From the NCBI GenBank assembly GCA_013152435.1, contig JAADGJ010000039.1, positions 1 through 51,757 of the forward strand: a stretch of 51,757 bases of DNA, read 5' to 3'. A program made the position numbers and the translations under genes. Below the pieces are notes generated by a model. The model searched no databases. It saw only the letters and a list, made by a program, of their open reading frames with translations, and was not told where the DNA came from. Shown piece after piece: positions 8,214 to 45,900 of the stretch (position 1 is the first letter of the stretch; the number at the start of each line of letters is the position of its first letter). The stretch comes from Chloroflexota bacterium. Lineage in GTDB: Bacteria; Chloroflexota; Anaerolineae; DUEN01.

Positions 8214-8280
8214 GTGTCCCAGAAGGCATCAACACACCTGTCGCCGTTCCTGGAGCCCTCCAGCCGGGAAAGGGGGAGAT

Positions 8281-9045
8281 ATGCTCCACAAGATGATCTT
8301 GCTTGTAGTTCTGCTTCTCGCCCCTTTCTACCAAACAGCCGGAGATGACGATCCCCTGGTCTCGTACCCACAGCAGCCACAGGCGCAATGGACATGGTTC
8401 GGAGGCAAGCTAGAGTATTCTTTCAATCATCCTTGCCTTGACTCAAGTTTCTATATTTACACGGGAGATGGCCCAAACGGAGAGTTGTTGGGCAGCGGGA
8501 AAGCATTTTTCAGTTACGACAGAGTCAACTGGTATTTCGCCATCTATCTAGATCGTCCTCTGCGTGAAGGCGAGACGATCACGGTCTATGCGGAGTGTGC
8601 GGAGAATCAGGTCGTACAGGACACATTTGTCGTATTGCCGTTCCAATCCTGGCCCAGGCCTCTCGATTGGCACATGGTCCCCGGCATGTACGACCAGCCT
8701 ATAGAAGGCGACACGATGATACGGGGCCGACTAACTCCCTCGATATGCGCAGATGCGCTGGTTTCGGTATCCCTCGGCGCAAAACCATCGGGTACCCGCT
8801 TGGGAACCAGTACGGTCGAAGTTGATGGGAGCTTCCGAGTGTACCTGAGCCGGTCCCTGCGAGAGGGAGAGCTCATCACCATCTATGCCGAGTGTGCCAA
8901 GGGGCCACGAGGGGTGTTTGTCTGGGACACCCTGGCCGTGTCACCGGCTCCACCGCAGATCCCCGAGCCCGGCACGATTCTGCTCGTGGGCGGCGGACTG
9001 GGAGCACTGGCCTCATGGATCCGGCTTCATCAAAGGAAGCCCTGA
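8281..9045 (+). CDS. Secreted two-repeat protein with PEP-CTERM-like tail
   Basis: A 254-aa exported protein. It starts with a signal peptide (KMILLVVLLLAPFYQTAG) and has two tandem ~100-residue units; the first ends LREGETITVYAECAE (about 95-110), the second LREGELITIYAECAK (about 195-210), so it arose by internal duplication of a beta-rich module. The C-terminus reads IPEPGTILLVGGGLGALASW followed by a basic end (RLHQRK). This is the tripartite form of a PEP-CTERM sorting signal: PEP motif, transmembrane stretch, positive tail. The exosortase that would process it is not in the window. GGGGGAG precedes the ATG. Base composition is visibly more AT-rich than in the neighbours, hinting at transfer. 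Its TGA overlaps the ATG of the next gene by one base. Confidence 0.75.
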   Translation: MLHKMILLVVLLLAPFYQTAGDDDPLVSYPQQPQAQWTWFGGKLEYSFNHPCLDSSFYIYTGDGPNGELLGSGKAFFSYDRVNWYFAIYLDRPLREGETITVYAECAENQVVQDTFVVLPFQSWPRPLDWHMVPGMYDQPIEGDTMIRGRLTPSICADALVSVSLGAKPSGTRLGTSTVEVDGSFRVYLSRSLREGELITIYAECAKGPRGVFVWDTLAVSPAPPQIPEPGTILLVGGGLGALASWIRLHQRKP

Positions 9046-27661: not shown

Positions 27662-28246
27662 TTAGCCGATCTTGAGCGTGACCTCCAGGCCGCTGCCGAT
27701 GGGGACCAGCACGCTCTCCAGAGCGGGATCTTGTCGCACGCGCTCCAGGTAAGCCGTCACGGCATCCGCATGGGAGAGGATGTTGTCGGCAACGACGATG
27801 CTGCCGGGCAACAGCTTGGGCAGCACCAGGTCCAGGTACAGGGAGTAGTCCCGCTTATCCGCGTCCAGGAAGACGAAATCGAAGGGACCCGGCAGCTCTT
27901 TCAGGGTTTCCCGGGCGTCCCCCACGATGATCTCCACGACATCTTCCAGCCCGGCGCGGGCCAACGTCTCTCGCGCCGCCGCGGCCCGCTCGGGCGTGAT
28001 CTCGCAGGTGATGACGCGGCCGCCGTTCGGCCGCGTGGCATCCGCCAGCCACAACGTGGAATATGCGAACGAGGTGCCCACCTCCAACAGACGCGTCGCC
28101 CGCGTGGCCTGGATCAGCACGTGCAGGAAACGAGCCGAGTCCGGATGCAGAGCCCACATGCGTGATGTAACCTCTTGCGGCCGCTCCCGCTCCCGACGAG
28201 CCCGCTCCTCCAGCTCGGCGATGATCTTCGCGATCCTTGGCTCCAT
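27662..28246 (-). CDS. SAM-dependent O-methyltransferase
   Basis: A class I methyltransferase of the catechol/caffeoyl-CoA O-methyltransferase type (Methyltransf_3), 194 aa from ATG 28246. SAM-binding motifs are LLEVGTSFAYSTLWLA (motif I), VITCEITPERAAAAR (motif II, acidic residue), and FDFVFLDADKRDYSLYLDLV, whose DADK holds the metal-binding Asp typical of the group, followed by VVADN. The usual EhaRxL-like N-terminus is replaced by EERARRERERPQEVTSRMWAL. GGGAG precedes the start by eight bases. It begins 13 bases after the small membrane protein and is the last gene of the run. Substrate unknown. Confidence 0.88.
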   Translation of the reverse strand: MEPRIAKIIAELEERARRERERPQEVTSRMWALHPDSARFLHVLIQATRATRLLEVGTSFAYSTLWLADATRPNGGRVITCEITPERAAAARETLARAGLEDVVEIIVGDARETLKELPGPFDFVFLDADKRDYSLYLDLVLPKLLPGSIVVADNILSHADAVTAYLERVRQDPALESVLVPIGSGLEVTLKIG

Positions 28247-28259
28247 ACTCACGTCTCCC

Positions 28260-28649
28260 TTACCCGGTTTGCTGTGTCTGGAAGGCGGCAACGATCTGGG
28301 GCTGCAGCAGATACCAGATGATCAGCCCGCCGATGATCGTGCCAATGGGGAAGTTCAAAAGTCGCAGAACGGACAGTCCTATCGCCGCAATGCGGGCCCA
28401 TTCCCTCATGTGCCAAAGCCCCCATCCCACGAGGAGATTCGCCAAGGCCAGCAGAAACAGGAACCCGGCCGCCAACACCATGATCCCCCCGACGATGGGG
28501 ACGGCGATACGCGCATCCGGATCCCCGCTCGCCGCCACCCCCACGATGAACGGGATCGTCAGCAGAGCGCATATGCCCAGCCCGGTCACCACCCCAACCA
28601 CCAGATGATACAACGCGATCACCAAAACGCCACCAGGGCGAGGCTCCAT
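28260..28649 (-). CDS. Small multi-pass membrane protein
   Basis: A 129-aa hydrophobic protein with three or four transmembrane segments: VLVIALYHLVVGVVTGLGICALL and the following PFIVGVAA, IVGGIMVLAAGFLFLLALANLLVGWGLW, and IAAIGLSVLRLLNFPIGTIIGGLIIWYLLQ (segments interrupted here). Similar short proteins with this kind of sequence occur in many Chloroflexota and are unassigned. It lies 16 bases after the binding-lipoprotein gene and 13 before the methyltransferase, so it is part of that transcript. No family call is possible. Confidence 0.7.
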   Translation of the reverse strand: MEPRPGGVLVIALYHLVVGVVTGLGICALLTIPFIVGVAASGDPDARIAVPIVGGIMVLAAGFLFLLALANLLVGWGLWHMREWARIAAIGLSVLRLLNFPIGTIIGGLIIWYLLQPQIVAAFQTQQTG

Positions 28650-28665
28650 GATCTCCCCTCCTCAC

Positions 28666-29787
28666 TCACTGAATCTGGACGAAGGCATCCTCCCTCACCT
28701 GGAAGATGAACACCTTGGGATCCTGCAGGTCCCCATTCTCCTCATAACGGATCGGGCCGATCAGGGTGTCGATGCGCGCCTCCCGGAGGGCAGCAGCGAT
28801 CTGCGGCCCATCCACCTTCCCCGCCTTGCGAGCGCCCTCCGCCAGAACGGTCATCGCCACATATCCGTTGATGGAATACGTATCCGGATTGCGATATTCC
28901 ACCGCCTGGTAAGCCTTGATCCAATCCTCATCCACGGCCAGCGCCGGACTTGGAGCGAAGGCGCTCACGTACATTCCCTCCGCCGTCCCATCCGATTCGT
29001 CGATCGTGGCCGACAGGAAGGCACCATCGCTGGCCAGCATGGGCACGGAGATCCCCGCCCGCACCAGGGCCGACCGCAGATAGGGCGCCTCGATCTCGTA
29101 ACCCGCGTAGAAGATCGCGTCCGGGGCGGCCTCCTGGACGCGGGCCACCTCCTTCGCGTATTGCGATTGCCCCTCGGCCACCTGAAGGGTGAGCACCACA
29201 TCCGCCCCCAGGCGCTTCAGCTCCTGCGTGATGAGATCGCGCAGGCCGATCCCGTACTCCGTGTCGTTGTGGATGACGGCAACCCGCCGCGCGTTCAATT
29301 TCTCCACGAGGAAGGCAGCGTCCACCCGGGCCTGCACCGCGTCGTTCGCGTTCACCCGGAAGAAGTTGCGATATCCACGCTGGGTTAGCGAAAGCTCCGA
29401 GGCGGTAGGGGTGATGACGACGATGGGGAGATCCTTATAGATCTCCATGGCCGCCAGCGTCTGACCGCTATTATAATGCCCGACCACCCCCAGCACACGC
29501 TCGCCGCTTTGGACCGCCTGGCGTATCTGCTCGGCCACCTGCACGGCGACATCGGAATCCGATTCGTCGTCCAGGGCGACCACCCGGATCTGATACCCGA
29601 GCAGCCCACCGGAGCGATTGATCTCCTCGGCGGCCAGGCGCACTCCGCCGACCACCGTCTGTCCTCCATTGGCCTGGAATCCGGACAACGGCGCGGCGAC
29701 GTAAACGGTGACCTCCCCCTTGGGAGCAGAGGAGCACCCCGTGACCAGCCATCCCAACAGCAACAGCCACACAACGATTCGGCGCAT
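28666..29787 (-). CDS. Branched-chain amino acid-type ABC substrate-binding lipoprotein
   Basis: A 373-aa periplasmic-type binding protein of the LivJ/Leu-Ile-Val-binding class. It starts MRRIVVWLLLLGWLVTGC, a lipoprotein signal with the lipobox LVTGC (Cys near residue 18). The mature part begins VTVYVAAPLSGFQANGG, then GGVRLAAEEINRSGGLLGYQ, GVVGHYNSGQTLAAMEIY, a VIHNDTEYG hinge and the FYAGYEIEA and DPKVFIFQV strands typical of the fold. The ATG at 29787 follows GGGGAAGG; a longer frame to 30006 has no good start. No liv-type permease or ATPase genes are near, so it is an orphan that may be a sensor. It follows the coiled-coil membrane protein by 82 bases. Confidence 0.9.
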   Translation of the reverse strand: MRRIVVWLLLLGWLVTGCSSAPKGEVTVYVAAPLSGFQANGGQTVVGGVRLAAEEINRSGGLLGYQIRVVALDDESDSDVAVQVAEQIRQAVQSGERVLGVVGHYNSGQTLAAMEIYKDLPIVVITPTASELSLTQRGYRNFFRVNANDAVQARVDAAFLVEKLNARRVAVIHNDTEYGIGLRDLITQELKRLGADVVLTLQVAEGQSQYAKEVARVQEAAPDAIFYAGYEIEAPYLRSALVRAGISVPMLASDGAFLSATIDESDGTAEGMYVSAFAPSPALAVDEDWIKAYQAVEYRNPDTYSINGYVAMTVLAEGARKAGKVDGPQIAAALREARIDTLIGPIRYEENGDLQDPKVFIFQVREDAFVQIQ

Positions 29788-29869
29788 GCCCTTCCCCACG
29801 ATCAAAGAGATATCCATCGGTGAAGATCCCCGTGAGAGGGGATCCCACCACGATTTGGAAAGCACGGTC

Positions 29870-30712
29870 TTACGATTCGACGGAGGCCCCCTCCTCGAAG
29901 GAGGTTTCGTACACCTCGTCGATGGCCTGCACGATGTCCTGGAGGGCGGCCACCTGATCCGAGATGTCCTTTCGCAGCCGTCGAGCCCGATCGCTATCCA
30001 CATCACGGGCGCCGATCAACTGGATCTGGGAGTACACCGTCCCCAACGCCGAGATGGTGGCCTCCAGCTGATAGCGCGCTCGGTCCATGGTGTTATCCAG
30101 CGCCTCCAGGCTGCGCCATTGCGCCTCCCGGCTTTTCAGGGCAGCCTCCAGCTGCGCCCGCACGCTGGGGTCGTCCTCCCGCTGGAGCTGAGCGCGCAGC
30201 CGTCGGATATCCTCCGGCACCTTGGCCCGATCGCGATGGATGATCGGGTCCGACAGGTACGCGTCCACCTTCTCCGCCAGCCGATAGACGCTCTCCAGCC
30301 AATCCTCCAGCTGTCGGACGGTCTCCATCAGATGATCGCGCAACACCCCGGAGCGCTGCCGATGAACCAGCCGCTCCATACGTTCGTGATAGCGCAACGC
30401 CTGCTCCACCTGGGACCGCAGCGTCTCATCCCGGATACGACGCGGGTTGAACCGCTGGCGAAAGAGCTCCGCCACCACGCGGGCGTTGGTCTCCGGATCG
30501 GTCAGGCTGGTGTACACGATGAGCAGCACGGCCGCGCAGGCCAACGCCCCCCATCCCCAGATCGGCCAGGCCGGAAACGGCCGCGGAAGGAAATAGGTGA
30601 GCAGGATCGCCCCCGCGATCACCACCGCGCTCTCCCAGCGGAACAGCGCGTACTGGATCATCGCCCCACGGGCGCGTCGTTCGAGTTGGTCTCGGGTTCG
30701 TTCGCGAGTCAT
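29870..30712 (-). CDS. Two-helix membrane protein with coiled coil
   Basis: A 280-aa protein. Residues 1-25 are charged, two transmembrane helices follow (VVIAGAILLTYFLP and WPIWGWGALACAAVLLIVYTS), then about 190 residues of mostly helical, charged sequence (RLRAQLQREDDPSVRAQLEA, KSREAQWRSLEALDNTM) that predicts a long coiled coil, probably cytoplasmic. It has no family I recognise. Its ATG overlaps the VWA gene's stop by one base, so translation is coupled and the proteins likely interact. A PspA-like helical partner is two genes upstream. Function unknown. Confidence 0.72.
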   Translation of the reverse strand: MTRERTRDQLERRARGAMIQYALFRWESAVVIAGAILLTYFLPRPFPAWPIWGWGALACAAVLLIVYTSLTDPETNARVVAELFRQRFNPRRIRDETLRSQVEQALRYHERMERLVHRQRSGVLRDHLMETVRQLEDWLESVYRLAEKVDAYLSDPIIHRDRAKVPEDIRRLRAQLQREDDPSVRAQLEAALKSREAQWRSLEALDNTMDRARYQLEATISALGTVYSQIQLIGARDVDSDRARRLRKDISDQVAALQDIVQAIDEVYETSFEEGASVES

Positions 30713-32457
30713 CAGAAGTAACTGGACAGGATCTTATAGAGTTCTCGAATGGTTTGCAGATCCCCCTGGCGGACCTGCCCCCCTGACGCCTCGGCCAGCG
30801 CCTTCAGCACATCATAATCCGCATCGTTCCCATAGGCGATGGCGAAGATCACCACCGGCGGCCCCTTCTGGTTACTCTCCTGGATCTCCCGGACCAGCGC
30901 CTTCAGCTCGACGTTCGATGAGTTCTCGCGCCCATCGGTCATCACGACGATGGCGTTGATCCGTTCGGCGTCGTTCAGACGCCACAGACGCATGTAGGCG
31001 GTGCGCACGGCGTCTAACAGGGCCGTTCCCCCACCCGCCTCCAGCTGGTCGATCCTCTGCATGAGCCGCCCCCGGCTCTCACCTAGCTCCGCGAGGGGCT
31101 CGATATGGTTGACCTGGTCGGAGAACTCCACCATCCCCACACGTTCCAGGTCCCCTTTGATCTGGTCCAGGAAGATGCGCAGCGCCTGCTGCGCGGCCTC
31201 CAGCTTCTCCCCCTCCATGCTCCCCGATGTATCCACCACCAGGAAGACGTTGGTGTGGCGCTTCGTGTACCACCAGACGTTGCGCACAACCTCCACGACT
31301 TTGGGCCCAGGGATCTGGAGGGTGGTCTGCGGCTGCGTCGGATCGACGCCGTTCTCCTGGGTGAGAGGAGACCCGGCCCCATCCAGGGGGATGCTCAGAT
31401 CAGCCGGGCGATATCCGGCCGCCAGGATCCGCTCCTGCACAGCGGGCGACAACAGGAACTCCCGGAACGCCTGAAACGTGCGCCGCTGGTTGGCAGTGGG
31501 CTCCGGTCGCTCCAGGAGGGCCAGCGGGTGATCGGCCCACAGCGTCCCCTCGACGGGGTAAATGGCCACCAGGCGCTCGGACGGCCCTTCCAGGTTGAAT
31601 TGGATCACCAACTGCTCCTGGACCACGAAAGCATCCAGGTAACGTCGGCCCTCTTTTCGCGCCCGCTCCAGGACGGCCAGCTCGCCCTCGCCGTAGTACC
31701 GCACCGTCCGCTCGATGGCCGTCACATAGTCGAGGGTGCTCTGGGCCTGCGCGTCCTCGATCGTCAGGTCGCGCACCTTGCCCACGGCCGCGTAGAACTC
31801 GGCCAGGGTGGCCAGCAGGCCGCTAGCATGACTGGTGGAGGCGTGATTCCATTTGAAGTCCGGATCTTGCTGGGCCTTCTGCTGGATATCGCGCCACCCG
31901 ATCGGCCGGTCCGGCCATCCCAGATCCCGGGCCACCGACTCCCACGCGGCGATGACGATGGGGCTGACCGCGTACCGGGTGGTATCGGCGATGATACGCG
32001 GGGCGATCCCCTCCGTCGCGCCGACTCGTTCCGCATAGGCACGATCCAGTTGATCCAGCCAGAGGGACGAGTCCGGATTGAGCGCTTGCACCGAGACGGG
32101 AACCTGGTACTCCGGGAGCGCCTGCTGCAAGGCGGCCTCGATCATCGTCTCCGAGTCCATGGCATGGATCTGCACGACCATCTTCTTCCCGTCCGGGGTG
32201 CGCTGCTTCTGCCCGTTAAAGTCATCGGCCAGCTCCTGCAGCAGCGCTTCCTTCTCCGGAGAGACGGCGACGGCCAGGGTAGCGCTGTAGGGATCGCGAG
32301 AGGGCTTCTCGGCCGTCGTGAGGGAATCCCTCCCTCCCCAGGCGAGGGCGAGAAGGAAGACACAGCACGCGAGCAGGAAGCCGACTACGGCCAGTGCGCC
32401 GCCGATCAGCAAGCTGCGGGAGGGACGCTTTCTGCGTGTGCGCTCATGGCGGGTCAT
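30712..32457 (-). CDS. Membrane-anchored solute-binding protein fused to VWA domain
   Basis: A 581-aa protein. It has an Arg/Lys-rich start and one transmembrane helix (IGGALAVVGFLLACCVFLLAL, ~18-40). Residues ~60-350 resemble a bacterial extracellular solute-binding domain (VQALNPDSSLWLDQLDRAY, IGWRDIQQKA, GLLATLAEFYAAVG, FREFLLSPAVQERILAAGYRP). Residues ~405-580 form a von Willebrand factor A domain with a complete metal-ion site: DTSGSM near 411, the Thr of GGGTALLDAV and VVMTDGREN. The anchor suggests both domains face outward. The ATG at 32457 is four bases after the stop of the upstream binding-protein gene, and AGGTAGAG precedes it. The next gene overlaps by one base. Ligands are unknown. 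Confidence 0.88.
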   Translation of the reverse strand: MTRHERTRRKRPSRSLLIGGALAVVGFLLACCVFLLALAWGGRDSLTTAEKPSRDPYSATLAVAVSPEKEALLQELADDFNGQKQRTPDGKKMVVQIHAMDSETMIEAALQQALPEYQVPVSVQALNPDSSLWLDQLDRAYAERVGATEGIAPRIIADTTRYAVSPIVIAAWESVARDLGWPDRPIGWRDIQQKAQQDPDFKWNHASTSHASGLLATLAEFYAAVGKVRDLTIEDAQAQSTLDYVTAIERTVRYYGEGELAVLERARKEGRRYLDAFVVQEQLVIQFNLEGPSERLVAIYPVEGTLWADHPLALLERPEPTANQRRTFQAFREFLLSPAVQERILAAGYRPADLSIPLDGAGSPLTQENGVDPTQPQTTLQIPGPKVVEVVRNVWWYTKRHTNVFLVVDTSGSMEGEKLEAAQQALRIFLDQIKGDLERVGMVEFSDQVNHIEPLAELGESRGRLMQRIDQLEAGGGTALLDAVRTAYMRLWRLNDAERINAIVVMTDGRENSSNVELKALVREIQESNQKGPPVVIFAIAYGNDADYDVLKALAEASGGQVRQGDLQTIRELYKILSSYF

Positions 32458-32461
32458 CGCT

Positions 32462-33706
32462 CTACCTCTGCGCGACATTCAGGTCGAACCATCGCAAGAG
32501 CGCCAGCAGCACGTCCCGATCCGGGGAGCGCATGGCCTCGGTGCGCGGCACCACGGGGCGTACCCCCCGATCCTGATAGCGCACGAACAGGCTCTCGCCG
32601 TCGGTTACGGGCACCTCCGGGTTGGCCGGCCGCAGGCCATACTCAATGGCCTGACGCTGCACCTCCGGGGAGAGCAGGAAGCGCTCGAATTCCAGCGCCG
32701 CGTTCTTCTCCAGAGCTGTGGTCTCCGGCCCCATCCAGACGGTGAAGGGGAAGTCGAACCAGGTGACGTACTTGGGATAGTAGATGCGCAGCGGGTCCGC
32801 CCAGCGCGTCTCGATCCCGGCCATGTTCGTCAGCAGGTCGCTCTCCAGGAGCTGGCCGCCATCGCCCACGGAGTACCCAAAGAGGGCGAAGTCCTCGGCC
32901 GTATACGCGCTGCCGCCGCTGACATCCGTTACCGCCCCCATGAGCTCTCCCAGCCAGCGCTGGAAGTCGGGGTCCGTGACATCGGCGGTGGAGATATCGG
33001 GGCGATCGTAGTACTCCCCAGCCGCAGCGATCATGGCCGCCAGCCCCCCCACGTTCTTGCGGGGATTCGGCACCACCAGCTTAAAGAACCCCCACTCCGG
33101 GTCGCCCCCCAACTCCGGCCATCCCCCTTTAGCGATCGCCGCGTCGTGGATCGTCCGCCAGTTGATCTCGCCGAAATGCGCCTGCAACACCCGGGCGCGG
33201 CTCTCATAGATGCCCCAGGCGAACAGGGACACGACGATGGGGCGGGCCCGGTATTCGCCATCGGTCAGGAACACATCCCGTCCCAGCCGCTCTTTGTACG
33301 TGGCGTTGGCCAGCTCCACCAGATAGCGGGAGTCCGGGATCCACACGGTGGGGAAGCGCTCCAGCCGCTCCCGCTCTTCCGAGGAGAGCTCGTCAGGCGA
33401 GCGATCCCCCAGGATGCCGAATTCGTCCCGATCCCATTTCCCCAGCGCGGCGAGCCCATCCATGGCGATCACTTCCACGGAGATGGGTTCGCCCTCCAGT
33501 TTATGTTTCTCCTCGTTGAACTGTCGAGCGGCTGCCCGCACCCACGGCTCCACGGGAAGCGCGGTGAGGATGCGCACCTGGATGGGGCCGCGCGGGGTGA
33601 TGGTCAGCGGCTCCGGCCGGCTGAGAGCCCGCCAGATCAGCGACGCGGCCACGATGGCCAGCGCCGCCAGAATGACAGCGAAGAAGATGATGCGAGTCCG
33701 GCTCAT
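32462..33706 (-). CDS. Membrane-anchored solute-binding-like protein, paralogue of the VWA fusion
   Basis: A 414-aa protein with an N-terminal helix (IIFFAVILAALAIVAASLIW) and no lipobox, so it is probably a membrane-anchored extracytoplasmic protein. The rest resembles a solute-binding fold and is related to the N-terminal part of the VWA protein: compare FERFLLSPEVQRQAIEYGLRP with FREFLLSPAVQERILAAGYRP, and INWRTIHDAA with IGWRDIQQKA. The pair looks like a duplication with fusion of a VWA domain to one copy. The ATG at 33706 has AAAGG upstream. Its stop is four bases before the VWA start; PspA ends 198 bases upstream. Ligand unknown. Confidence 0.82.
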   Translation of the reverse strand: MSRTRIIFFAVILAALAIVAASLIWRALSRPEPLTITPRGPIQVRILTALPVEPWVRAAARQFNEEKHKLEGEPISVEVIAMDGLAALGKWDRDEFGILGDRSPDELSSEERERLERFPTVWIPDSRYLVELANATYKERLGRDVFLTDGEYRARPIVVSLFAWGIYESRARVLQAHFGEINWRTIHDAAIAKGGWPELGGDPEWGFFKLVVPNPRKNVGGLAAMIAAAGEYYDRPDISTADVTDPDFQRWLGELMGAVTDVSGGSAYTAEDFALFGYSVGDGGQLLESDLLTNMAGIETRWADPLRIYYPKYVTWFDFPFTVWMGPETTALEKNAALEFERFLLSPEVQRQAIEYGLRPANPEVPVTDGESLFVRYQDRGVRPVVPRTEAMRSPDRDVLLALLRWFDLNVAQR

Positions 33707-33903
33707 GGACAAGCCTTTCGTTCTGCGAACTCGATGACGAGCGAAGCTTTTCGGCTGCGCGGTCTATCACCGGGAGGGGCCATCGGGATCCGAGACGATC
33801 CGATCACGAGCCGGGCTCCCACACTTGGCCTGTGGGAGCCGTCTCGACAAGGGCCGCCTCGGGCCTGATCTGCGCCCCTCTCCGGGCTTTCCGTCCGTGC
33901 GGG

Positions 33904-34581
33904 CTACGCCAACCCAAGCCGCTTCTTGCGCTCCTTCAGCTGCGCCTCCAGGGTGTGTCGCTCCAGAACCTCGTCCATCTGGGCGTCCAACCGCTGTGCG
34001 TACATCTCGGACTGGGCCTGCGCCTTATCCAATCGGGCGCGAATGCTCTCCGCCACCCGTGCGATATCCGAATCGCCGGCCCCTACCAGATCATCCAGCG
34101 ACTGAATGGCCCGTACCGTGATCTCCTTGGACTTGGCCAGGTCCAGCAGTGCCCTGAGCTCCTCTCGCTCCTGCTTCACGGTGGTCAGCCGGGCCTCCAG
34201 CTTCAGCTTCGCATCCAGCAGCTTCTGGTACTCCGCCTCCTGGCGGGCCAGCTGATCGCGATAGCTCTCCAGCAGCCGCTGTGTGGAGTTGAGCTTGCTC
34301 TGAGCCGCCATAGCCAGCTCGTCGCGCCCCTCCTGGAGGAACAGATCGATGTTGCGATCCAGCTCCGCGACCTTCTTCTCGTACTCCTCGGTCTTGCGCT
34401 TCAGCGTCTTGACCTGCCCCCCGACGGTGGCCGCCGCATCCCCCAGATCCTCCAGGTTGTCCTCGATCTGGCGGATGTACTGATCGACGACCGCCAGCGA
34501 GTTCGCTTTCAAAGCCCGATCGACCAGCGCGTGTAGGTTCGCCCGGATCAACGTGTCCACCTTTTCCAGCAGAGAAGCCAT
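33904..34581 (-). CDS. pspA: PspA/IM30 family membrane-stress protein
   Basis: PspA/IM30 (Vipp1) proteins are ESCRT-III-related helical proteins that bind the inner face of a stressed membrane. The 225-aa protein is almost entirely coiled coil: SLLEKVDTLIRANLHALVDRA (helix 1, membrane-binding region of the family), QYIRQIEDNLEDLGDAAATVGGQ, KRKTEEYEKKVAELDRNIDL, then SKLNSTQRLLESYRDQLARQ. The C-terminal ending ERHTLEAQLKERKKRLGLA is shorter than in plastid Vipp1. The ATG at 34581 is preferred, as GAGGAGG lies about eight bases before it; an ATG at 34587 sits too close. It heads the cassette with two solute-binding-type genes, an unusual PspA context. No PspBC or PspF homologues are seen. Confidence 0.87.
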   Translation of the reverse strand: MASLLEKVDTLIRANLHALVDRALKANSLAVVDQYIRQIEDNLEDLGDAAATVGGQVKTLKRKTEEYEKKVAELDRNIDLFLQEGRDELAMAAQSKLNSTQRLLESYRDQLARQEAEYQKLLDAKLKLEARLTTVKQEREELRALLDLAKSKEITVRAIQSLDDLVGAGDSDIARVAESIRARLDKAQAQSEMYAQRLDAQMDEVLERHTLEAQLKERKKRLGLA

Positions 34582-34859
34582 CGTCATTTCCTCCTCAAGA
34601 GTTTATCGGCATCCCCTTCGGAGCGCACCGGCAGGCTGGCGTCCGTGAAGGAGATACGGGAGATTCTGAAGGGCCTCCCACCCCCTCCAGGGAGGCAGGA
34701 GCCCTGAGAAGACAACTCGCCGGGGAAGACGCTCGATTCCCCTCAGGAGATGAGGCTTCCGTCGGCCAGCCCCATCCTCGCGCCCGCCCCTATGTCACAC
34801 ATGACTGGCGACAGACTTCCAGCTGACACCCACGGGGGGAGAGACAAGGCGGGCGGAGG

Positions 34860-36239
34860 TCACCCGCCGACTAGCTTGTACCCGCGGCCGCGCACGGTAA
34901 TCAAATAGCGAGGGTTAGACGGGTCGGGCTCGATCTTCTGACGCAGCCGGCTCACCAGCTTCTCGATCCGCGCGTCGTCCACCTCGTCGATGTACGCCTC
35001 ACCCCATACCGACTCCACGACGGTGTACTTGTCGCAGATCTTCCCCATGCGTCCATACAGGAGCAACAGCAATCGGTATTCCAGATTGGTCAGGGCGGGC
35101 GTCGGCTTCCCGTCCACGTACACCTCGCCCGAGTCCACATCAACCACGATCCCCCGCGCCTCCGGCCGCTGCACCAGATGCTGGCGCTGCACGTACTCGG
35201 TGAACGCCCGGCAGAAGAGGCGCGGGTCATCGCCGTTGCTGACGAGCACCCGCTTCTGCTGGAGGGAGGTCAGCCCGATGGGATCGGGGCGCCTGCCAGG
35301 ATCGAACAGCGCGAGCAAGGCCTGCTGCTCCACCTCCGTCAGGTGACGCCACACCTTGGCACACTCCGAGCGCACGTTCAGGCTGGAGGCCAGGCGCTCC
35401 GCCACCTGTCGATGGATAATGCGATCCTGGATGGCATCCCGCACGGGCTGGCCGGTAACCAGACCCAGCTCCCGGCTCACCGCCTCTAGAAGGCCCGGAT
35501 GTCCCCCGGCCCACTCCAGGATGAACTGCACATCGGCATCGCCAAAGGTGACCGGCTCTCGCTCCGTGAAGGCGGCGATGAAGCGCCGCGCGTCCTCCTC
35601 GTTCAGTGGCCCCAGGTAATAGCGATAGTGAGCGAACAGCTCGTTGAACTCGCCCACGTCCTCGCCGCCGCGAATCTCGCTGAGCCGGCGATCGGTGGCC
35701 GTGACGTACGTGAGCTGGCGCAGATATTGATCTCGCAGGGCCCGCAGGTTGAGGAACACCCGGCCATCGATACGGGCCAGGGGGGCGTCGAACTCGTCGA
35801 ATAACAACACCAGCTCGCGACCCAGTTGCTTGACCAGGATCGTGATGGCCTGGTTGAAGCTGAGCGGCACGTGGAAGGGGCTGGGAGGGCTGACCACGGC
35901 CTCATAGGCGGTGCGCAGATCCCCGTCAATGCCGCGCTCCTGAACCAGATCGCGCAATTGATCCAGGATGCAACGCAGCACCAGCTCGTAGAATCCCTGG
36001 TCGCTCATCTCCAGCATGCGGTTGCAATCGATATACACCAGCGCCAGTTGATCGGCGTCCGCCCCCAGATGATCCCGCTGCACCTCCGGATCGCGAAGCT
36101 GGCGCATCAACGCGGACTTGCCGATGTTGCTGATGCCGATGATGGAACAGGGGTCCAATCGACGGATATAGCCGAAAATGTGCTCTGTCTCCTGCCATCG
36201 CGGGCGCGTGGCAGTCCTTTCGTGAACGAGTCCTACCAT
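34860..36239 (-). CDS. STAND-type ATPase fused to OmpR-type DNA-binding domain
   Basis: A ~459-aa protein. The N-terminal part is a P-loop ATPase: Walker A GISNIGKSALMRQL near 36-46 and Walker B LVLLFDEFDAPLAR near 155-165, followed by a sensor region (YVTATDRRLSEIRGG) and helical domain. The C-terminal ~90 residues are a winged-helix DNA-binding domain of the OmpR/PhoB class (LTNLEYRLLLLLYGRMG, DARIEKLVSRLRQKIEPDP and ITVRGRGYKLVGG). There is no receiver domain. The start is put at ATG 36239 (AGGGAAGG upstream). The 3' neighbour is PspA (279-base gap) and the 5' neighbour is the giant histidine kinase (109-base gap), so it may link ATP-driven sensing to control of the cassette. Confidence 0.85.
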   Translation of the reverse strand: MVGLVHERTATRPRWQETEHIFGYIRRLDPCSIIGISNIGKSALMRQLRDPEVQRDHLGADADQLALVYIDCNRMLEMSDQGFYELVLRCILDQLRDLVQERGIDGDLRTAYEAVVSPPSPFHVPLSFNQAITILVKQLGRELVLLFDEFDAPLARIDGRVFLNLRALRDQYLRQLTYVTATDRRLSEIRGGEDVGEFNELFAHYRYYLGPLNEEDARRFIAAFTEREPVTFGDADVQFILEWAGGHPGLLEAVSRELGLVTGQPVRDAIQDRIIHRQVAERLASSLNVRSECAKVWRHLTEVEQQALLALFDPGRRPDPIGLTSLQQKRVLVSNGDDPRLFCRAFTEYVQRQHLVQRPEARGIVVDVDSGEVYVDGKPTPALTNLEYRLLLLLYGRMGKICDKYTVVESVWGEAYIDEVDDARIEKLVSRLRQKIEPDPSNPRYLITVRGRGYKLVGG

Positions 36240-36347
36240 GACGTCATTGCCTTCCCTGTAAGCCGTTTGTCCGCCATCCATCGAGGCGAGAAGGGGGATG
36301 ATCGCCTCACAAACCTCCGCCCTCGTCGGGGATATTCCTGATTGTAT

Positions 36348-39300
36348 CTACGCACCATTCTCCCGGGCGTTTCGCCCTTCGGCCCGCTCCTGCCCGATAT
36401 TCGGGAGATAGATGGGCACGGTGAAGATAAAGGTGCTCCCTTTGCCCTCCTCGCTTTCCACCCAGATCTTGCCGCCGTGCGCCTCTACGATCCGTCGAGC
36501 GATCGCCAGGCCCAATCCCGTGCCGCTGAATCGTCGCGTGGAGGAGCTGTCCACCTGGTAGAAGCGATCCCAGATCTTGTCGATCTGATCCGCCGGGATC
36601 CCGATCCCCTGATCCTCCACCTCGACGCGTATGAACGTACCCTCCCGTCGCATTCGAATCGTGATCGTCCCCCCTTGCGGGCTGAACTTGATGGCGTTGC
36701 CGATCAGATTGTCGAACACCTCGCCCAATCGGCCGGGATCCCCCCACACATCTGGCAGGTCCTCCTCCGCGTCTAACACCAGCTGCAGCCCGTTCTGCTG
36801 TGCCACAACCTCGGCGCCCCGGACGCAGGCCTCCGCCACCTCCACCAGGGACGTCCGCTGCCGCTCTATGACCTCCGTCTCCGCCTTCTTCAAGGAGATG
36901 ATATCGTTCACCAGGTGAATGATGGCATCCCCCCGGTTGGCCATGACGCGGAGAGCCTCCTCCTGCTCCTCGGTCAACGGGCCCAACACCCCATCCAGCA
37001 GCAATTCCACGTATCCCTTGATGTAGGTCAACGGCGTGCGCAGCTCGTGGGAGACGTTCTGCACGAACTCGTCCTTCATGCGATCCAGCTGTTTCAGCTC
37101 CCGATATGCTCGATCCAGCTCCTCCGCGCGGGCGCGCTCGGCGGCATATAGGCGGGCGTTCTCTAAAGCGATGGATACCTGGTCCGCCAGCGCCTGCAAC
37201 ACGAAGAGGTCATCGCTATCAAAGGCATTGACCTGATCCGATTGCACGTCCAGCACGCCGACCACCCTGCCGGACAGGCGCATAGGCACCGCCAACTCCG
37301 CCCGGGTGTCCGCCAGAGGCTGGAAGAAATAGTAGCGTGGCTCCTGAGACACATCGTTGGCGAGCAATGGCTTCCCGGTGGAGGCTACCCAGCTCACGAT
37401 GCTCTGTTTGGTCAACGGGAGGCGGAGGACGGGCTCGGTCACCTCGTAAACGCCCGCCCCGGCCTGCAACACGACGTATTGCCCCGTATCATCCAGCGTC
37501 CACAAGCTGACCTGGGAGTAGCGGAAGCGCGCCTGAAGCAAGCGCGCCACCTCTATGAGGAGGGTCCGCAAATCGAGAATGGCCGTCACGCGCTCCGTGA
37601 CCTCCCGAATCGCCTGCAACTGCACCGCGCGTCGGTGCTCCCCCTCGAAGAGGCGCGCCTTCTCAATGGCGGTCGCCGCCAGGTCCGCCATGGCGTGCAG
37701 CAGCCTCTGGGTAGCCTCGTCCGGTATGGTGTCGAGGGAGATGATGCCGATCGCCCCCGCATCGGTGATGAGGGGGACCTGGATCACCTGAGGCGTGATC
37801 GGCCACCCGAAGTCCACCACCCGGGGATCTCGGCTGGTGTCCTCCGAGATGATGATCTTGCCCGTACGTATGGCCTCCCCGACCAGGCCGACCTCAGGCG
37901 GGATGTTCCGAGCGTTGAACGAGGCCACGAAGTCATCCGGCAACCCCCGCCAGGCCACCACGCGTAGCGCGTTCGTGCGCCGATCGACCAGAATGATGGC
38001 GGCCTCCTGACGGCCAGCCAGCTCAAAGGCGCTATCCAGCACGATCTCCAGGACCTGCTTGAGCTCGATGGCCTCGTTGAGCGCCTCGCTGATGCGCATC
38101 AGGGCGGAGAGCTCGCGGACACGCTGCGCCGTCTCGGCATGCAGCCGGGCGCGCTCGATCGCCACGGCGGCTTGGTTGGCGAACGCCTGCACCACCTCCG
38201 CATCCCTCTGCGAGAAGGCGTGCGGCTGTTCGCTGTCCACCGCCAGGATGCCGATTAACTTTGGCGCCTCCCGCCCCCCCACCAGCAGAGGAGCCCCCAT
38301 CCAGGACCGCACATGCTCCGTGCCGGGGAGCTTTACCCACATGGGCTCGTCTCGCGTATCCGAGATCACGTGTGGAAGCGGAGAGGTGGGATCGAAACGC
38401 GTCAGATAATCCCCTGCCTCGATGCGGAACCCGAGCACGTTCGTCTCCTCGGGGAACCCGTGCGCCGCCCTGACCTTCAACACCTCGTGACCCGCGGGGC
38501 CTCGCTCCTGTAGCATCACACAGGCCGAGTCATAGGCCACCACCCGCTGCAGATGGGTCAGGACGAGCGCGAGCACGGTGTCCAGGTCCTGCACCGCGTT
38601 CAGCGCGCCGGCCATATCGCGCAGCGCCTCCGCCAGCTCCCGAGCTCGCCGCTCGGCCTCCAGCCGCTGCGCCTTCTCCAGGGCGACGGCGATCTGGTTC
38701 GCGAATAGAGTGATCGCCGGCATGTCAGAGGGTTGCAACTCCCCAAAGACGATCAGACTCCCTTCCGTTCGATTCTCGATCCTGAGCGGCACCAGGATCA
38801 TGCGCCAGGAAGCGAAATCGCTGGGAAGATGCGCCCGCAGCGTCGCCGGATCCAGCTCCAGAACCCGCCAGAGAAAGTCCACCAGGTCGTCTATAAAGAG
38901 AGGGGTCTCCCCATCCAAATGCACGGGATATTTCTCGTCCCGCTTCGGCACGAAGGAGAACTTCAGGAAGGGTTGCCCCAACACCCGATCCAGGGCCTGT
39001 ATGACGTACTCCGGCAGGGAGGTGTGGCGAACCTGCCAAGACGACCGGTCAGGGGTCACGGTGCCGATGAGGGCGTAGAAGCCCAACCTCTTCATCTCCC
39101 GGGCGACGGTCTCAAAGATCTCCTCCAGCGTCAGAGCGGCCTGCACCGCCACAGCCGCGCTGCTGAGCGTGTGCAACAAATCTTCCGATCGCTTCCGCTG
39201 GCTGATGTCCGTGAACGCCGTCAGGAACCCCTGTAACTGGTCCTCCTCCAGAAGGGGCGTCGTGCTGGCCAGCACGGGCAGTTGGGTGCCATCGGCCCGG

Positions 39301-42300
39301 AGCAGCGAGATCTCATACTGCTGCGTCTCGTGAGGGCAGTTCTCGTCCAATTGCGGGTTTTGATCCCGCCAGTCCGGTGGCAACAGCTTTTCATACGACC
39401 ATCCGACGAAGCTGCCGGGGGCGTACCCCAGCATCTCCTCCAGTCTCCGGTTCGCGAAGACGATACGCCCATCAGGAGAGGTGAGCAGGAGCCCCTCGGC
39501 CATCGTCTGAATGATGTTCTCGTTGAAATCCCGTAGCTCTTCCACCTCCGCGATATGCTGCAACGTCGCCTGGAAGAGTCGGGCATTCTGGATCGCGATG
39601 GCCGCCTGGCGTCCCACGCTGGAGAGGATGGCGATGTCCTCCTCGCTGTAGGTGCGATTTTTCTCCAGGTCGACGACGGACAGGGCCCCCATGACGCGGT
39701 CGCCCACCATCAGCGGCACCGCCAGCACGGCTTTGATGCCGGCGGCGACGAACTCGGGCACGGAGCGAGGGTAGGCCGCGTAATCGGGGATAGCGAGGGG
39801 TTTCCGGGTTTGAATGACCTCGCCTATGAGACCCTCGTGGATCGGAATGGTGATCTGGGATAGCTCCTCCGGCAGGTTGTGCAGATACGGATACGTGATC
39901 ATCTGCCGCGCCTCGTCCAGGAGGGCGATCCCTCCCGCCTGGCCGCCCACCAGCTCCTCAGCGATCTCGATGGCCAGACGCAGAACCCGGGGCAGATCCA
40001 GCTCGGCCACCAGGCTCTCGCTGAGCTCGCTCAGACGCTGCTCCCGCCGCAGCCGGCGGGCCACATCCTCGTACAACCGGGCGTTATCCACAGCCACGGC
40101 GGCCTGGTCCGCCAGCATCGCCAGCAGCGTCAGCTCCTCCTCGCTGAACGTGTGAGGGTGAAGATAGGCCAGGGTCAACGCCCCGATGGGCTCCCCGGCG
40201 CGCAACAGGGGAAAGGCCGCGATCGCCTGTATCCCCCACCGCTTGGCTTCCGGCGTGTTGAACAGGGGATGGGAAGGGGCGTCACTGATGACGATGGGGC
40301 GACGTTGTCGTATGGCGCGTGCGGTGATGCCATCCTTTCGCGGCTTGTATGTAACCGGCCGGGGGATGCCATCCGCCCAGCTCGCGGTGCCGAAGAAGAA
40401 CTGATCGGAGGCCGCGTCGTAAAGATACAGGTGGGAATCGGTCGCATCGGTGAGCATCAGCACGCTATCCACGATGCGCTGCAACACGGCCTTCAGATCC
40501 AAGGAAGCGGCCACATGCATGCCCAGCTCGCGGAGGGTCTCCATCTGAGTCGCCCACCGCCGGGTCTGATCGTACAGCCGGGCGTTTTCCAGCGCGAGGG
40601 AGATCTGCTGGGCGAAGGCCAGAGCGACCTTTTCGTCCTCCTCCGTGTAGAACGCCCGCTTCGCGCTGTCCAGCGTGAGGACGCCCAGGACGCGATCCTC
40701 CACCATCAACGGCACGCCCATCCAGCTTCGGATGTACTCGAAGCCGACGTCAGGAGCCCACAACTCGCTCGTCCTCACGTCCGCGATGCGCAAGGGGCGC
40801 TTGGCTTGCGTGACATGGTAGCCCGCGCGCCGCTTATCGAAGGGGGACCAGATCTCTTTCAGAGCCTGGGTCGTCACGCGGCCGGTGGCGAACAGGATGC
40901 GGAACCCATCCCTCTCAATCAACGAGATGGCCGCGCTGTCATAGGGGACCGTCTCCTTCAACCCCAGAAGGGCCTTCCGAGCGACCTCGCGCAGGTCCAG
41001 CGAACTGGTGATCGCGGTGCTCAGCTCCCGTAGAGCCTCCGCCTGGCGCCGGCGCTTCTGCTCGGCCTCGAACAGCCGGGCGTTCTCGATGGCCACGGCG
41101 ACCTGCGCCGCCAACGTGCCGAGCAGTTCCAGATCGCTCCGGGTAAGCGAGCCCACGCCGAAGTTCTCCACATCCAGCACACCCAGGATCCGATCCCCCA
41201 GACGTATCGGGACACAGAGCTCGGCGTCAGTGGGCAGAGAGGTGGGGACATACTCCGGGGCCTGGTGGACGTTCGGCAACAGGATGGGCTTTCCGGTGCG
41301 GGCTACCGTTCCCACGATCCCCTGCCCCAGGGGCACCCTCACGAGCGTCTTCAGGTCCTCCTCGCTATGCCCATACTGCGCCTGCAGATGCAGGGTCTCT
41401 CCCTCCAACGTATACAAGGCCACCAGGGGATAACGGAACTCGCCGGCAAGCTCCGAGACGACCAGATCGTAGAGCTCCGGCAACGAGAGGGAGGAGCGGA
41501 TCGCCGTCCCCAGGCGGTGCAACGTGGAGAGGCGGCTGGCGCGACGGTGGGCGCGTTCCGCCTCTCGAGCGCGTCCGATGATGAGGCCGACCTGACGCGC
41601 CAGCGTCTGGCAGACCCGGACTTTCTCCTCCGACAGCGCGGAGCGGTCCCAGGAACGCCCCTCGCCCAGGGCGATGATCCCGACGACGCGATCCTCCACG
41701 ATCAGCGGAACCAGGGCACCGGATTGGGCGTCGGGGAAGAAGGTGATCGACATCTCAGGTTCCGATGCATGAGTGATCGGGAACTCCCCTTCCGCCTTGG
41801 GCAGCCGAGATGCCCGCACCACGATGATGGGATGCGCCTCCTGGATCACAGACCGGCAGATCGGGGCATCGTCCAGAGCGATCGGCTGCCACAGCCCTGG
41901 CTTCCACGCGACGGCACGCAGCGTATAGGAGGCCCGGGTAACCAGGGTTTTTCCGTGGGTGTCCAGCAGGAGCACGCGACAGGCGGTCACGGGAAGCCGT
42001 TCGGTCAGCTCCCTGGCCAGGCTCGCCAGCGCCTCCTCCACGGTGGCGGAGGCCATCAGCGCCTGGCTGGCCTGCAGGACGAGATCCAACTCCTGGTTGC
42101 GCTGATGGATCCACTGTAGGAGACGCTGATGGTTCAGGGCGATCGCCGCCTGTCCGCGTATGGCCGCCAGCACGTCCTGAACCACGTCCGAGGTAAGCTC
42201 CCCCGGCTCACGGCTGGCGATCAGCAAAGCCCCCACCAGCTCCTGATTCACCGCCAATGGGCAGACCAGGATCACCTGATCTTGATCCATTGTGGGGGAG

Positions 42301-42641
42301 AAAGCGACCTCCTTCAAGCCGTCCGGCCCCGCCACGACACATCCTATCCGGCCCTGGGATACGATCCCTCCCAACACCGAGCGATTGAGAGGGATGGTCG
42401 CGTGGCAGCGCGTGAAACGATCCGGCATATTGCGCTGAGCGATCAGCCGGAGCAGGTCATGGCGCTCCTCCAATGTGTAGACCGCGCCCGATGAGGCGTT
42501 CAAGGCCTCCAGGACCCGCTCCAGGATCGCCATGCCCACGTCCTCCCACGGGGGCGGAGGAGGCAAACCAACCGACGAGAGCGCGGATGGGGACTTGGAA
42601 TCGCTTTCCCGGGGGAGATAATGAGTCGAGGCCGCTGTCAC
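36348..42641 (-). CDS. Giant soluble sensor histidine kinase with ten GAF domains
   Basis: A 2097-aa kinase without transmembrane segments. By eye there are ten GAF-type modules, about 35-175, 195-355, 375-525, 545-690, 710-860, 880-1030, 1175-1340 (degenerate), 1360-1510, 1530-1670 and 1690-1840, most ending in a helix like ALENARLY or AIENARLF. One PAS domain lies near 1045-1155 ([14 protein letters not shown]). The C-terminus has the phosphoacceptor box VSHELRTP (His near 1864), the N-box [11 protein letters not shown] near 1980, DQGIGIP, and [22 protein letters not shown] start at 42641 has AGGAGG nine bases upstream. No receiver-domain partner is adjacent. The ligands of the GAF array are unknown. 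Domain limits are estimates. Confidence 0.93.
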
Positions 42642-42647
42642 AGCGCA

Positions 42648-42923
42648 TTACCTCCTAGCATAGATCTCCATGATCTCCGCGACCGGGCCACAGTACGCAC
42701 CACCCTGTGCGCTGGGGCAGATGACGCATGCCATATCCGGATCGGATCTCCTATCCAATCTCATCCCCAGGGCCCGGATTTGATGTATCCATAGATGCAC
42801 AGCCCGCCTTAACAGATCGCGAAGCCACTCCCTGAAATCGTTCACACACACTCTCACCACAGCGTCACGTCCACCGACCGGACGGGAATAGTAGATGAGC
42901 GGACACCCTGCCTGTCCGCCCAT
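42648..42923 (-). CDS. Possible small protein before the giant kinase
   Basis: An open frame of up to 91 aa ends in TAA seven bases before the kinase GTG, with the kinase's AGGAGG inside its last codons, an arrangement seen in coupled genes. The C-terminal part has MACVICPSAQGGAYCGPVAE with three cysteines. Against it: the start is unclear, no ribosome site is obvious, and third-position GC is lower than in neighbouring genes. It could be chance. The rest of the 350-base gap to secA shows nothing else. Confidence 0.25.
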   Translation of the reverse strand: MGGQAGCPLIYYSRPVGGRDAVVRVCVNDFREWLRDLLRRAVHLWIHQIRALGMRLDRRSDPDMACVICPSAQGGAYCGPVAEIMEIYARR

Positions 42924-42991
42924 CTCGTCTTGACTTCCCCGGCCGTCTCCCCCCGCGTCTCGATGTTGGTGTGATCAGGAGGTATTCCCAT

Positions 42992-45900
42992 TCAGCGCCT
43001 GCGCTTACGTTTACGTGATCCGCGCGACTTGCGCCCTGAGGCGGCCTTCTGTACCCTCTTCGGCTCCCCTTGGGAGGGAGGCCTGCCATCCCCGCTGGCT
43101 TGGTCCTGCCGCATATGACAATGCTTGTATTTCTTCCCGCTACCGCACCAGCAGGGATCATTTCGGCCCAGGGTGTGCGTGCGTCGTATGGGCTGGGGAG
43201 CCGACGCGGCTCCGTTCCCCCGATGCGCCACCATGCGACCCCGGAAGACGGGGGCAGGAGCCATCTCCCGCACCGGCTCCACGTGAAAGATCTGATGGAC
43301 GATGTCCTCCTGGATCGCCGCCAGGAGGCCCTGGTACATCTCATGTGCCTCTTTCTTAAATGCCACCAAAGGGTCGACTTGTCCATAGGCTCGTAGGCCG
43401 ATACCCTCCCGGAGCGTGTCCAGATCAGTCAGATGCCGGACCCACCGGTTATCGACGGCCCGTAACATCACCAGGCGCTCGATCTGGCGCATGGTCTCCG
43501 GGCCCAGGGAGCGCTCCTTCTCCTCATAACGCTCCCTCGCCAGCTCGAGCAGCCGCTCCTCGAGCTGCTGTGGCGTCAGCTCCCGCCATCGCGCGGCCGT
43601 CTCCGTCGCGGGCAGGGGGAAGATGCGGTTCACGGCCCTGTGCAGCCCGTTCAAATCCCACTCCTCCGGCAGAACCTGATCGGAGGTATACGTGCTGACC
43701 AGGGCCCGGATCTCGTCCTCGATCATGCCCATGATGGTGGGCTTCATCGTCGGCTCGGAGAGGATGCGCCGCCGCTGCGCGTAGATGATCTCACGCTGCG
43801 TATTGACGACGTCGTCATACTCCAGCACGTGCTTACGCAGGTCGAAGTTGTACCCCTCGACCTTGATCTGGGCGTTCTCGATGGCCTTGGAGATCATGTT
43901 GTGCTCGATGGGCACATCGTCCTCGACGCCCAGACGCTCCATGAGGCCGGCGATGCTCTGCCCGCCGAACCGACGCATCAGGTCGTCTTCCAGGGACACG
44001 TAGAAGCGAGACGAGCCGGGATCGCCCTGTCGGCCGGAACGCCCACGCAGCTGGTTGTCGATCCGGCGCGCCTCGTGGCGCTCCGTGCCGATCACGTGCA
44101 GCCCGCCCAGGGCGACCACCTTCTCCCGGTCGGCGGCGCACTCGCGCGTCGCCTCGGCCAACACCTCGGCCCAACGCTCGGGGAAGACCTTCGTGGGATC
44201 CTCCCCGCGACGAAGCATCTCCACGGCCTCATTCCATTGCGCCTGCGGGATGGTGGTCAGGTCCACACCCTCACGGCGGAGCCGCTCCCGGGCCAGATTC
44301 TCCGGGTTGCCGCCCAGCAGGATATCCACACCACGGCCGGCCATGTTGGTCGCGATGGTCACCGCCCCGGAGCGACCGGCCTGGGCGATGATGGCCGCCT
44401 CACGCTCGTGATGCTTGGCGTTGAGGACCTCGTGGGGGATCCCTCGCCGCTTCAGCATCCTGGACAGCATCTCCGAGGTCTCGATGGCCACCGTGCCCAC
44501 CAGGACGGGCTGCCCCCGCTTGTAGCACTCCTCGATCTCCTGGATCACGGCCTTGTACTTGGCCTCCTGGGTCTTGTAGACCACATCCGGGTGATCGATG
44601 CGGATCATGGGCCTGTGGGTCGGGATCACCACCACGTCGAGATCGTAGATCTTGGCGAACTCCTCCGCCTCCGTGGCCGCCGTACCGGTCATACCCGCCA
44701 GTTTGTTGTACATGCGGAAGAAGTTCTGGAACGTGATGGTGGCCAGGGTGAGGGACTCCTGCCGCACCCGCACGCCCTCCTTGGCCTCGATGGCCTGATG
44801 CAGCCCCTCCGAATACCGCCGGCCGTGCATCAGCCGGCCGGTGAACTCGTCCACGATGATGACTTCACCATCGCGGACGATGTAATCCCGGTCCCGCTTG
44901 TACAGCACATGGGCCCGGAGCGCGTTATCCAGGTAGGGCGTCAGCTCCAGATGCTCCGGGGCGTAGAGATTGTCGATGCCCAGCCACTGCTCGATCTTGG
45001 AGATGCCGGACTCCGTCAGGGTGACTACCCGCAATTTCTCGTCGACGGTGTAGTCCTCCTCCGGGCGTAGTCGTCGCACCAATTCGGCGAACTTCCGATA
45101 GTAGTCGGAGGACTCCTGAGCCGTGCCGGAGATGATCAGAGGCGTGCGAGCCTCGTCGATGAGGATGTTGTCCACCTCGTCCACGATGGCGTAGTGGAGC
45201 TCGCGCTGGACGCACTGGCTCAGGTCGATGACCATGTTGTCGCGCAGGTAGTCAAAGCCGAACTCGTTGTTGGTGCCGTACGTGATGTCCGCCTCGTAGG
45301 CCTCCCGCCGACTGCACGGGCGCAGGAACTGATAGCGATCATCCTGGGCCGGATACGCGGGATCGAACAGGAAGGATCCCTTTTCCGGATCGGCGGCGGC
45401 GGACTGGATCACGCCCACGCTCAGGCCAAGCAAGTGGTAGATCGGCCCCATCCACTGCACGCCGACCTTGGACAGATAGTCGTTCGGCGTGACCAGATGG
45501 GCCCCGCGCCCCACCAGGGCGTTGAGGTACAGAGGGAGCGTCGCCACCAGGGTCTTGCCCTCGCCGGTCTTCATCTCGGCGATCTTGCCCTGGTGGAGGA
45601 CGATACCGCCCAGCAACTGGACGTCAAAGTGGCGCAGGCCGATGGTGCGACGGCTCGCCTCGCGCACCGCTGCGAAGGCGCGAGGCAGGATCTCGTTCAG
45701 CACCTTCTCCTCGGCCTCCCGCAGCCTGGCATCCTCCCTCTTAAAATCCTCCCGAGCGCGCTGCCAGGCCTCACCACCGCGCGCGGTCTCCATCGCCAGC
45801 CGCGCCTCGTCCACCCGGGCGCGCAACTCGGCCGTCCGCTCGCGGATCTGCGCCCGGAATTGCTCCGTCAATTCGGGGAACGCCTCGTCCGGCAGGCGCT

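Follow-up and report, generated by a model that had tools for sequence, protein, structure and literature searches.

In the Psp and Lia systems, such as PspABCF of E. coli and LiaIHGFSR of B. subtilis, the gene of a PspA-family effector adjoins those of a small membrane protein and of a transcriptional regulator, and these three kinds of component are shared by the locus described here. According to the main text of a survey of PspA partners (PMC11237479), PspA/Snf7 operons additionally include an AAA+ ATPase, an ABC ATPase, a permease and a PBPB-OmpA protein and thus, like our locus, link PspA to an extracytoplasmic solute-binding domain, while other PspA genes are found with Band-7/flotillin and YuaF/YqiJ-type proteins. 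The survey's main text makes no mention of VWA domains. How PspA homologues outside the best-studied bacteria sense envelope damage is largely an open question.

The window (the whole stretch of 51,757 nucleotides from an Anaerolineae member of Chloroflexota) carries on its minus strand (36281-28666) a run which reads, in the 5'-3' direction, AAA-ATPase/winged-helix regulator, PspA, a solute-binding-type protein (SBP), a related protein fused to a VWA domain (SBP-VWA), a coiled-coil protein (CC) and a LIV-type lipoprotein (LIV; Table 1). A sequence-only reading had placed PspA, SBP, SBP-VWA and CC in this order, which is confirmed, although the interval it gave (32462-34581) spans just two of the four genes. 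Two recurring neighbours were added to them, the LIV gene downstream and the regulator upstream.

Table 1. Features of the PspA-SBP-SBP-VWA-CC-LIV locus (positions are those of the window).
Feature	Position	Strand	Basis
Regulator with AAA-type ATPase region and OmpR-type winged helix at the C-terminus; lacks a receiver domain	34860..36281	-	Trans_reg_C 65.6 bits; AAA_16 weak, below cut-off
PspA/IM30 family protein, lineage-specific subfamily	33904..34587	-	Pfam PspA_IM30 58.3 bits
Perfect 10-bp inverted repeat GGCTCCCACA-N7-TGTGGGAGCC between PspA and SBP	33814..33840	.	sequence
SBP: membrane-anchored solute-binding-type protein, start ATG 33706	32462..33706	-	one N-terminal TM helix; class-II SBP fold in model
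SBP-VWA: membrane-anchored SBP domain and VWA with complete MIDAS, start ATG 32457	30712..32457	-	SBP_bac_11, VWA (Pfam)
CC: two-TM hairpin, then predicted cytosolic coiled coil	29870..30712	-	TM prediction; no Pfam family
LIV-type periplasmic binding protein, lipoprotein-like signal	28666..29817	-	Peripla_BP_6 177 bits; lipobox LVTGC in sequence

In gene order, the gaps are 197 bases between PspA and SBP, 4 between SBP and SBP-VWA and -1 between SBP-VWA and CC. An alternative SBP-VWA start, the upstream ATG 32478, would overlap SBP. The tight junction proposed earlier for CC is real: its start overlaps the SBP-VWA stop by one base, and the product has two TM helices followed by a coiled coil. 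We infer that the genes of the run are co-transcribed; since the PspA-SBP gap is often large across loci (median about 250 bases), PspA may have its own transcript. The inverted repeat in this gap is present in a single copy in the window, was matched in none of 100 shuffles and is not followed by a T-tract; it is a possible candidate for an RNA processing or attenuation element. An Rfam search of positions 28000-43000 returned no known RNA element, and sigma-70-type promoters did not rise above the shuffled-sequence level.

Directly upstream of the receiver-less regulator, the window codes for a histidine kinase of 2097 aa that carries about ten GAF domains together with a PAS domain (36348-42641). 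This kinase is seldom kept beside the regulator (2 of 12 loci with wide flanks), and some loci have recurring kinase-like genes in the space from the regulator to PspA.

PspA itself belongs to the PspA/IM30/Vipp1 family by sequence. Its PspA_IM30 score exceeds the curated Pfam cut-off of 33.9 bits, and its profile gives a full-length alignment (positions 5-222) with the solved PspA/Vipp1 structures 8qbw and 6zvr (E about 1e-13). The amphipathic moment of residues 6-23 is 0.44, against a protein mean of 0.34, with the protein maximum located elsewhere. The source genome has a second, canonical PspA elsewhere, which scores higher in Pfam (99 bits); its neighbours are a coiled-coil protein that matches no Pfam family and a small membrane protein resembling a zinc ribbon. 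In eight related loci (L043, L074, L075, L077, L080, L082, L094, L107) a second, divergent PspA-like gene stands between PspA and SBP; its identity with the PspA of the window is about 40-45%. A role in anti-phage defence was considered and rejected: PADLOC returned weak matches for PspA only, as its coiled coil would lead one to expect, and none of the other genes was matched.

The described systems differ from this locus in several respects. Earlier inspection had noted that PspB and PspC are missing from the window; for PspB this extends to the entire genome, in which a genome-wide search found none, while PspC, missing at the locus, does have matches in the genome, on another contig (C75) and not with PspA. 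Neither pairing of the classical PspABCF system, PspB with PspA or PspC with PspA, is therefore found here. Instead, there is a CC protein without a Pfam family, and the extracytoplasmic SBP and SBP-VWA are added. The ABC ATPase, permease and OmpA domain of the PspA/Snf7 operons described in the main text of PMC11237479 were not seen in the run, and its SBPs are membrane-anchored, one of them being fused to VWA. No report of PspA with SBP-VWA, or of SBP-VWA with TelA, was found in the openly licensed literature. The operon is best read as a Psp-type system with features beyond those of the described Psp systems: CC, SBP and SBP-VWA.

We read the locus as a Psp-type envelope-stress device in which an outward-facing SBP/VWA sensor is coupled through CC to PspA, and assign this reading a probability of about one half. 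SBP, SBP-VWA and the LIV lipoprotein would monitor a ligand or the envelope state outside the membrane. Through its MIDAS, the VWA domain probably docks in a metal-dependent manner, either linking the SBP proteins to each other or binding a different envelope partner. CC would span the membrane as a two-helix hairpin, its cytosolic coiled coil presumably docking PspA. An outside change could then alter the complex so that PspA is recruited to, or released from, the inner membrane face. Transcription may be adjusted by the AAA/winged-helix regulator, in some cases together with a histidine kinase; the roles given here to the regulator and LIV are guesses.

The run PspA-SBP-SBP-VWA-CC-LIV recurs across Anaerolineae with sharp edges. 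Neighbourhoods of SBP-VWA orthologues in 31 relatives of the same class repeat it, with or without the regulator in front, wherever the contig is long enough, with few exceptions. Scanning one genome per GTDB species yielded 116 encoded SBP relatives, of which 80 were kept (Chloroflexota by their record titles, mostly Anaerolineae). VWA was found around 79 of these 80 SBPs, CC around 68, PspA around 65 and LIV around 62, most misses being due to contig ends; PspA is truly absent upstream in nine loci. The regulator accompanies the run in 34 of the 80, and a further 26 loci are cut by contig ends. All 12 loci with wide flanks contain PspA, SBP, SBP-VWA and CC, 11 contain LIV and seven the regulator, while sense-strand genes outside the run recur in 0-3 of them. 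Open reading frames on the strand opposite to the run score as well, owing to their overlap with conserved genes. These locus sets overlap, several loci sharing contigs, so the counts are not additive.

Co-occurrence was assessed in an even sample of 298 class genomes. The VWA orthologue is encoded in 96 and this PspA subfamily in 157 of them: 86 have both, 10 only VWA, 71 only PspA and 131 neither (Fisher p about 4e-20; the test ignores relatedness, and the counts weigh more than the p-value). In all 76 class genomes with both genes on the same contig, PspA lies upstream of the VWA orthologue on the same strand within 6 kb. In 21 genomes PspA is encoded and no VWA relative was detected, and in 10 the VWA orthologue is encoded without PspA, so neither strictly needs the other. 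The order is thus class-wide rather than a peculiarity of one genome, and the SBP/VWA genes are not always found without PspA, as the 86 genomes with both attest.

The constant genomic partner of PspA is CC and not the SBP/SBP-VWA pair. CC is present in 153 of the 157 class genomes with this PspA subfamily; in the whole sample only four have PspA alone, 12 CC alone and 129 neither. We also considered the 44 genomes with PspA and CC both placed on one contig and no orthologous SBP-VWA: CC follows PspA within 1 kb in 36 and within 3 kb in 43. Gene-by-gene reading of PspA loci lacking orthologous SBP-VWA placed CC beside PspA in nine out of ten. Since co-occurrence and adjacency persist without the VWA orthologue, CC is a natural membrane link to PspA. 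Its TM helices are predicted at residues 28-46 and 48-66, with positive charge at the N-terminus and after TM2 and little in the loop; this pattern predicts an N-in/C-in topology that would leave the coiled coil in the cytosol with PspA. In locus L204, NfeD and Band-7 genes come directly after PspA and CC. Band-7 is a PspA context known from the main text of PMC11237479, which does not recognise CC as a further partner; no Band-7 gene belongs to the run of the window.

No Pfam family was matched by CC. Assignment to XpaC/Halogen_Hydrol (PF10112) was rejected, as a single member out of 28 CC proteins matched (E 2.4e-5), the window CC not being among them, and PF10112 had no match in 121 genomes of the phylum.

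Under another explanation, the locus holds two units, PspA with CC for membrane maintenance and SBP, SBP-VWA and LIV as a separate, co-regulated surface complex, with no signal passing between them. PspA-CC does occur alone, SBP-VWA units without PspA or CC are known (family f38, see below), and the gap between PspA and SBP is wide. However, the SBP pair of the run does not flank PspA and CC but separates them, in an order fixed across dozens of families, and CC homologues accompany SBP/SBP-VWA where PspA is absent. We consider this arrangement rather unlikely.

The predicted SBP structure (pLDDT 84) matches class-II solute-binding proteins, while the Pfam matches of SBP stay below the cut-off (SBP_bac_8, 21.7 bits vs 27). 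It is the most conserved gene of the run, with a mean column identity of 65% among 31 orthologues. SBP-VWA scores above the cut-offs for both SBP_bac_11 (51 bits) and VWA (66 bits), and its structure is predicted with a pLDDT of 88.6. The two SBP domains are indeed paralogous, as had been supposed, yet distant (about 22-25% identity). In the structure comparison, the ligands of the nearest solved SBPs are sulfate, ferric iron, sugars or sugar phosphates, none of which stands out. Each protein has one N-terminal TM helix and is therefore predicted to face outwards. The MIDAS recognised earlier in the VWA domain is complete: D409/S411/S413/T478/D508 (D-x-S-x-S, T, D) are invariant in all 31 orthologues, making metal-dependent docking likely. 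One structural match of SBP-VWA, 6lkg, is titled a two-component-system signalling protein. According to the VWA profile match, an extracellular ligand-binding region combined with a MIDAS VWA is also shared with the alpha-2/delta subunit of voltage-gated calcium channels, which is eukaryotic and has a different ligand-binding fold; the likeness is meant as a functional analogy and not as membership.

MIDAS VWA domains commonly mediate adhesion, and the solved relatives found with the VWA profile include integrin and anthrax toxin receptor domains. SBP-VWA could accordingly be an adhesion or surface-assembly protein that, for instance, maintains the cell wall or S-layer, while PspA and CC support the surrounding membrane. 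In other lineages, however, its genomic partners act for the most part in cytosolic signalling or stress (kinase, PP2C, TelA), and genes for a surface layer or pilus do not recur alongside the run, which makes this role improbable.

SBP and LIV both fold as solute-binding proteins and might be orphan substrate-binding proteins of ABC importers, with PspA guarding the membrane during transport; a PspA/Snf7 context with ABC components and the PBPB-OmpA protein is reported in the main text of PMC11237479. But the conserved neighbourhood of the run showed no ABC ATPase or permease gene, one family has SBP joined to a kinase, and SBP-VWA bears a VWA domain. We regard importer function as very improbable.

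Nearly all sequences are metagenome-assembled genomes, mostly of one class, and relatedness inflates the raw counts, yet chance or shared ancestry without function is barely credible, since the run holds across dozens of families where flanking genes do not, phyletic co-occurrence is tight, and the sharp conservation boundaries, the placement of PspA relative to VWA and the PspA-CC adjacency contradict a chance order.

The SBP/SBP-VWA pair is portable between partner genes. The whole PspA-SBP-SBP-VWA-CC-LIV run is found in two genomes outside the class (L179, L180). In other Chloroflexota, SBP and SBP-VWA are accompanied by a two-TM coiled-coil protein and PspA is missing; in a profile comparison CC matched the coiled-coil protein of these triads with a probability of 97.9 (E 4.7e-13), and a generic coiled-coil similarity was rejected, as CC against PspA, the control, gave a probability of 0.1. 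In family f61 (L184), SBP forms the C-terminal part of a protein that starts with a Ser/Thr kinase domain and has a single TM helix, the layout of a receptor kinase. Several Anaerolineae loci without upstream PspA have other genes in its place, some of them kinase genes. On Variovorax plasmids, a TM-anchored protein with no Pfam match, TelA, SBP-VWA and a two-TM helical protein are encoded close together.

Some of these loci deserve description on their own. The L184 protein (7329-9818) unites a zinc ribbon, a Ser/Thr kinase, a TM helix and an SBP domain, and adjoins an SBP-VWA lipoprotein; similar long SBP proteins occur in L182, L183 and L193, the Pfam domains having been determined for L184 only. 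In L109 (249-6138), VWA, PP2C, LRR, WD40 and kinase genes lead into SBP/SBP-VWA/CC/LIV where PspA usually stands, and a YfbK-like VWA gene lies further downstream. The divergent family f38 (L214, L215, L216) has SBP and SBP-VWA, with LIV in two of its three loci, and neither PspA nor CC nearby.

Tel/Ter-type stress genes include TelA and combine VWA, PP2C and kinase genes. The resemblance lies in SBP-VWA relatives that adjoin TelA in Variovorax and follow VWA, PP2C and kinase genes in L109; here, by contrast, the partner is PspA. TelA as a hidden partner in the class was rejected, as none of 60 class genomes has it, with control matches obtained in B. subtilis, L. lactis and M. acetivorans.

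Coupling of an outward-facing sensor through CC to PspA is supported by the class-wide order with its sharp edges, the uniform placement of PspA upstream of VWA, the PspA-CC adjacency, the PspA-less triads with a CC homologue, the kinase-SBP fusion, the topology predictions, the NfeD/Band-7 context of L204 and the 6lkg match. Against it we count the wide PspA-SBP gap, the occurrence of PspA and VWA each alone and the f38 loci. The proposed tie between extracytoplasmic binding proteins and PspA thus stands as a linkage, in class-wide order and co-occurrence, while the constant partner proved to be CC, and the pair also occurs with a Ser/Thr kinase, with TelA or without PspA. Of the sensing or repair function originally proposed, envelope sensing is the better supported part.

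More tentatively, and at less than even odds, CC may be an unnamed general partner of PspA in Anaerolineae, and SBP/SBP-VWA a plug-in ligand-gated sensor with a metal-dependent VWA switch, serving PspA here and kinases or TelA elsewhere. If true, this would represent a new class of transmembrane Psp signalling. CC is a specific candidate for a membrane partner of PspA, and SBP-VWA, whose metal site is invariant, is a candidate for the extracytoplasmic sensor, which offers a possible role for the SBP-VWA proteins of several phyla whose annotation is limited to their domains. In about half of the class genomes with PspA and CC, two binding proteins predicted to face outwards lie between them, suggesting an undescribed way of informing PspA about the cell exterior.
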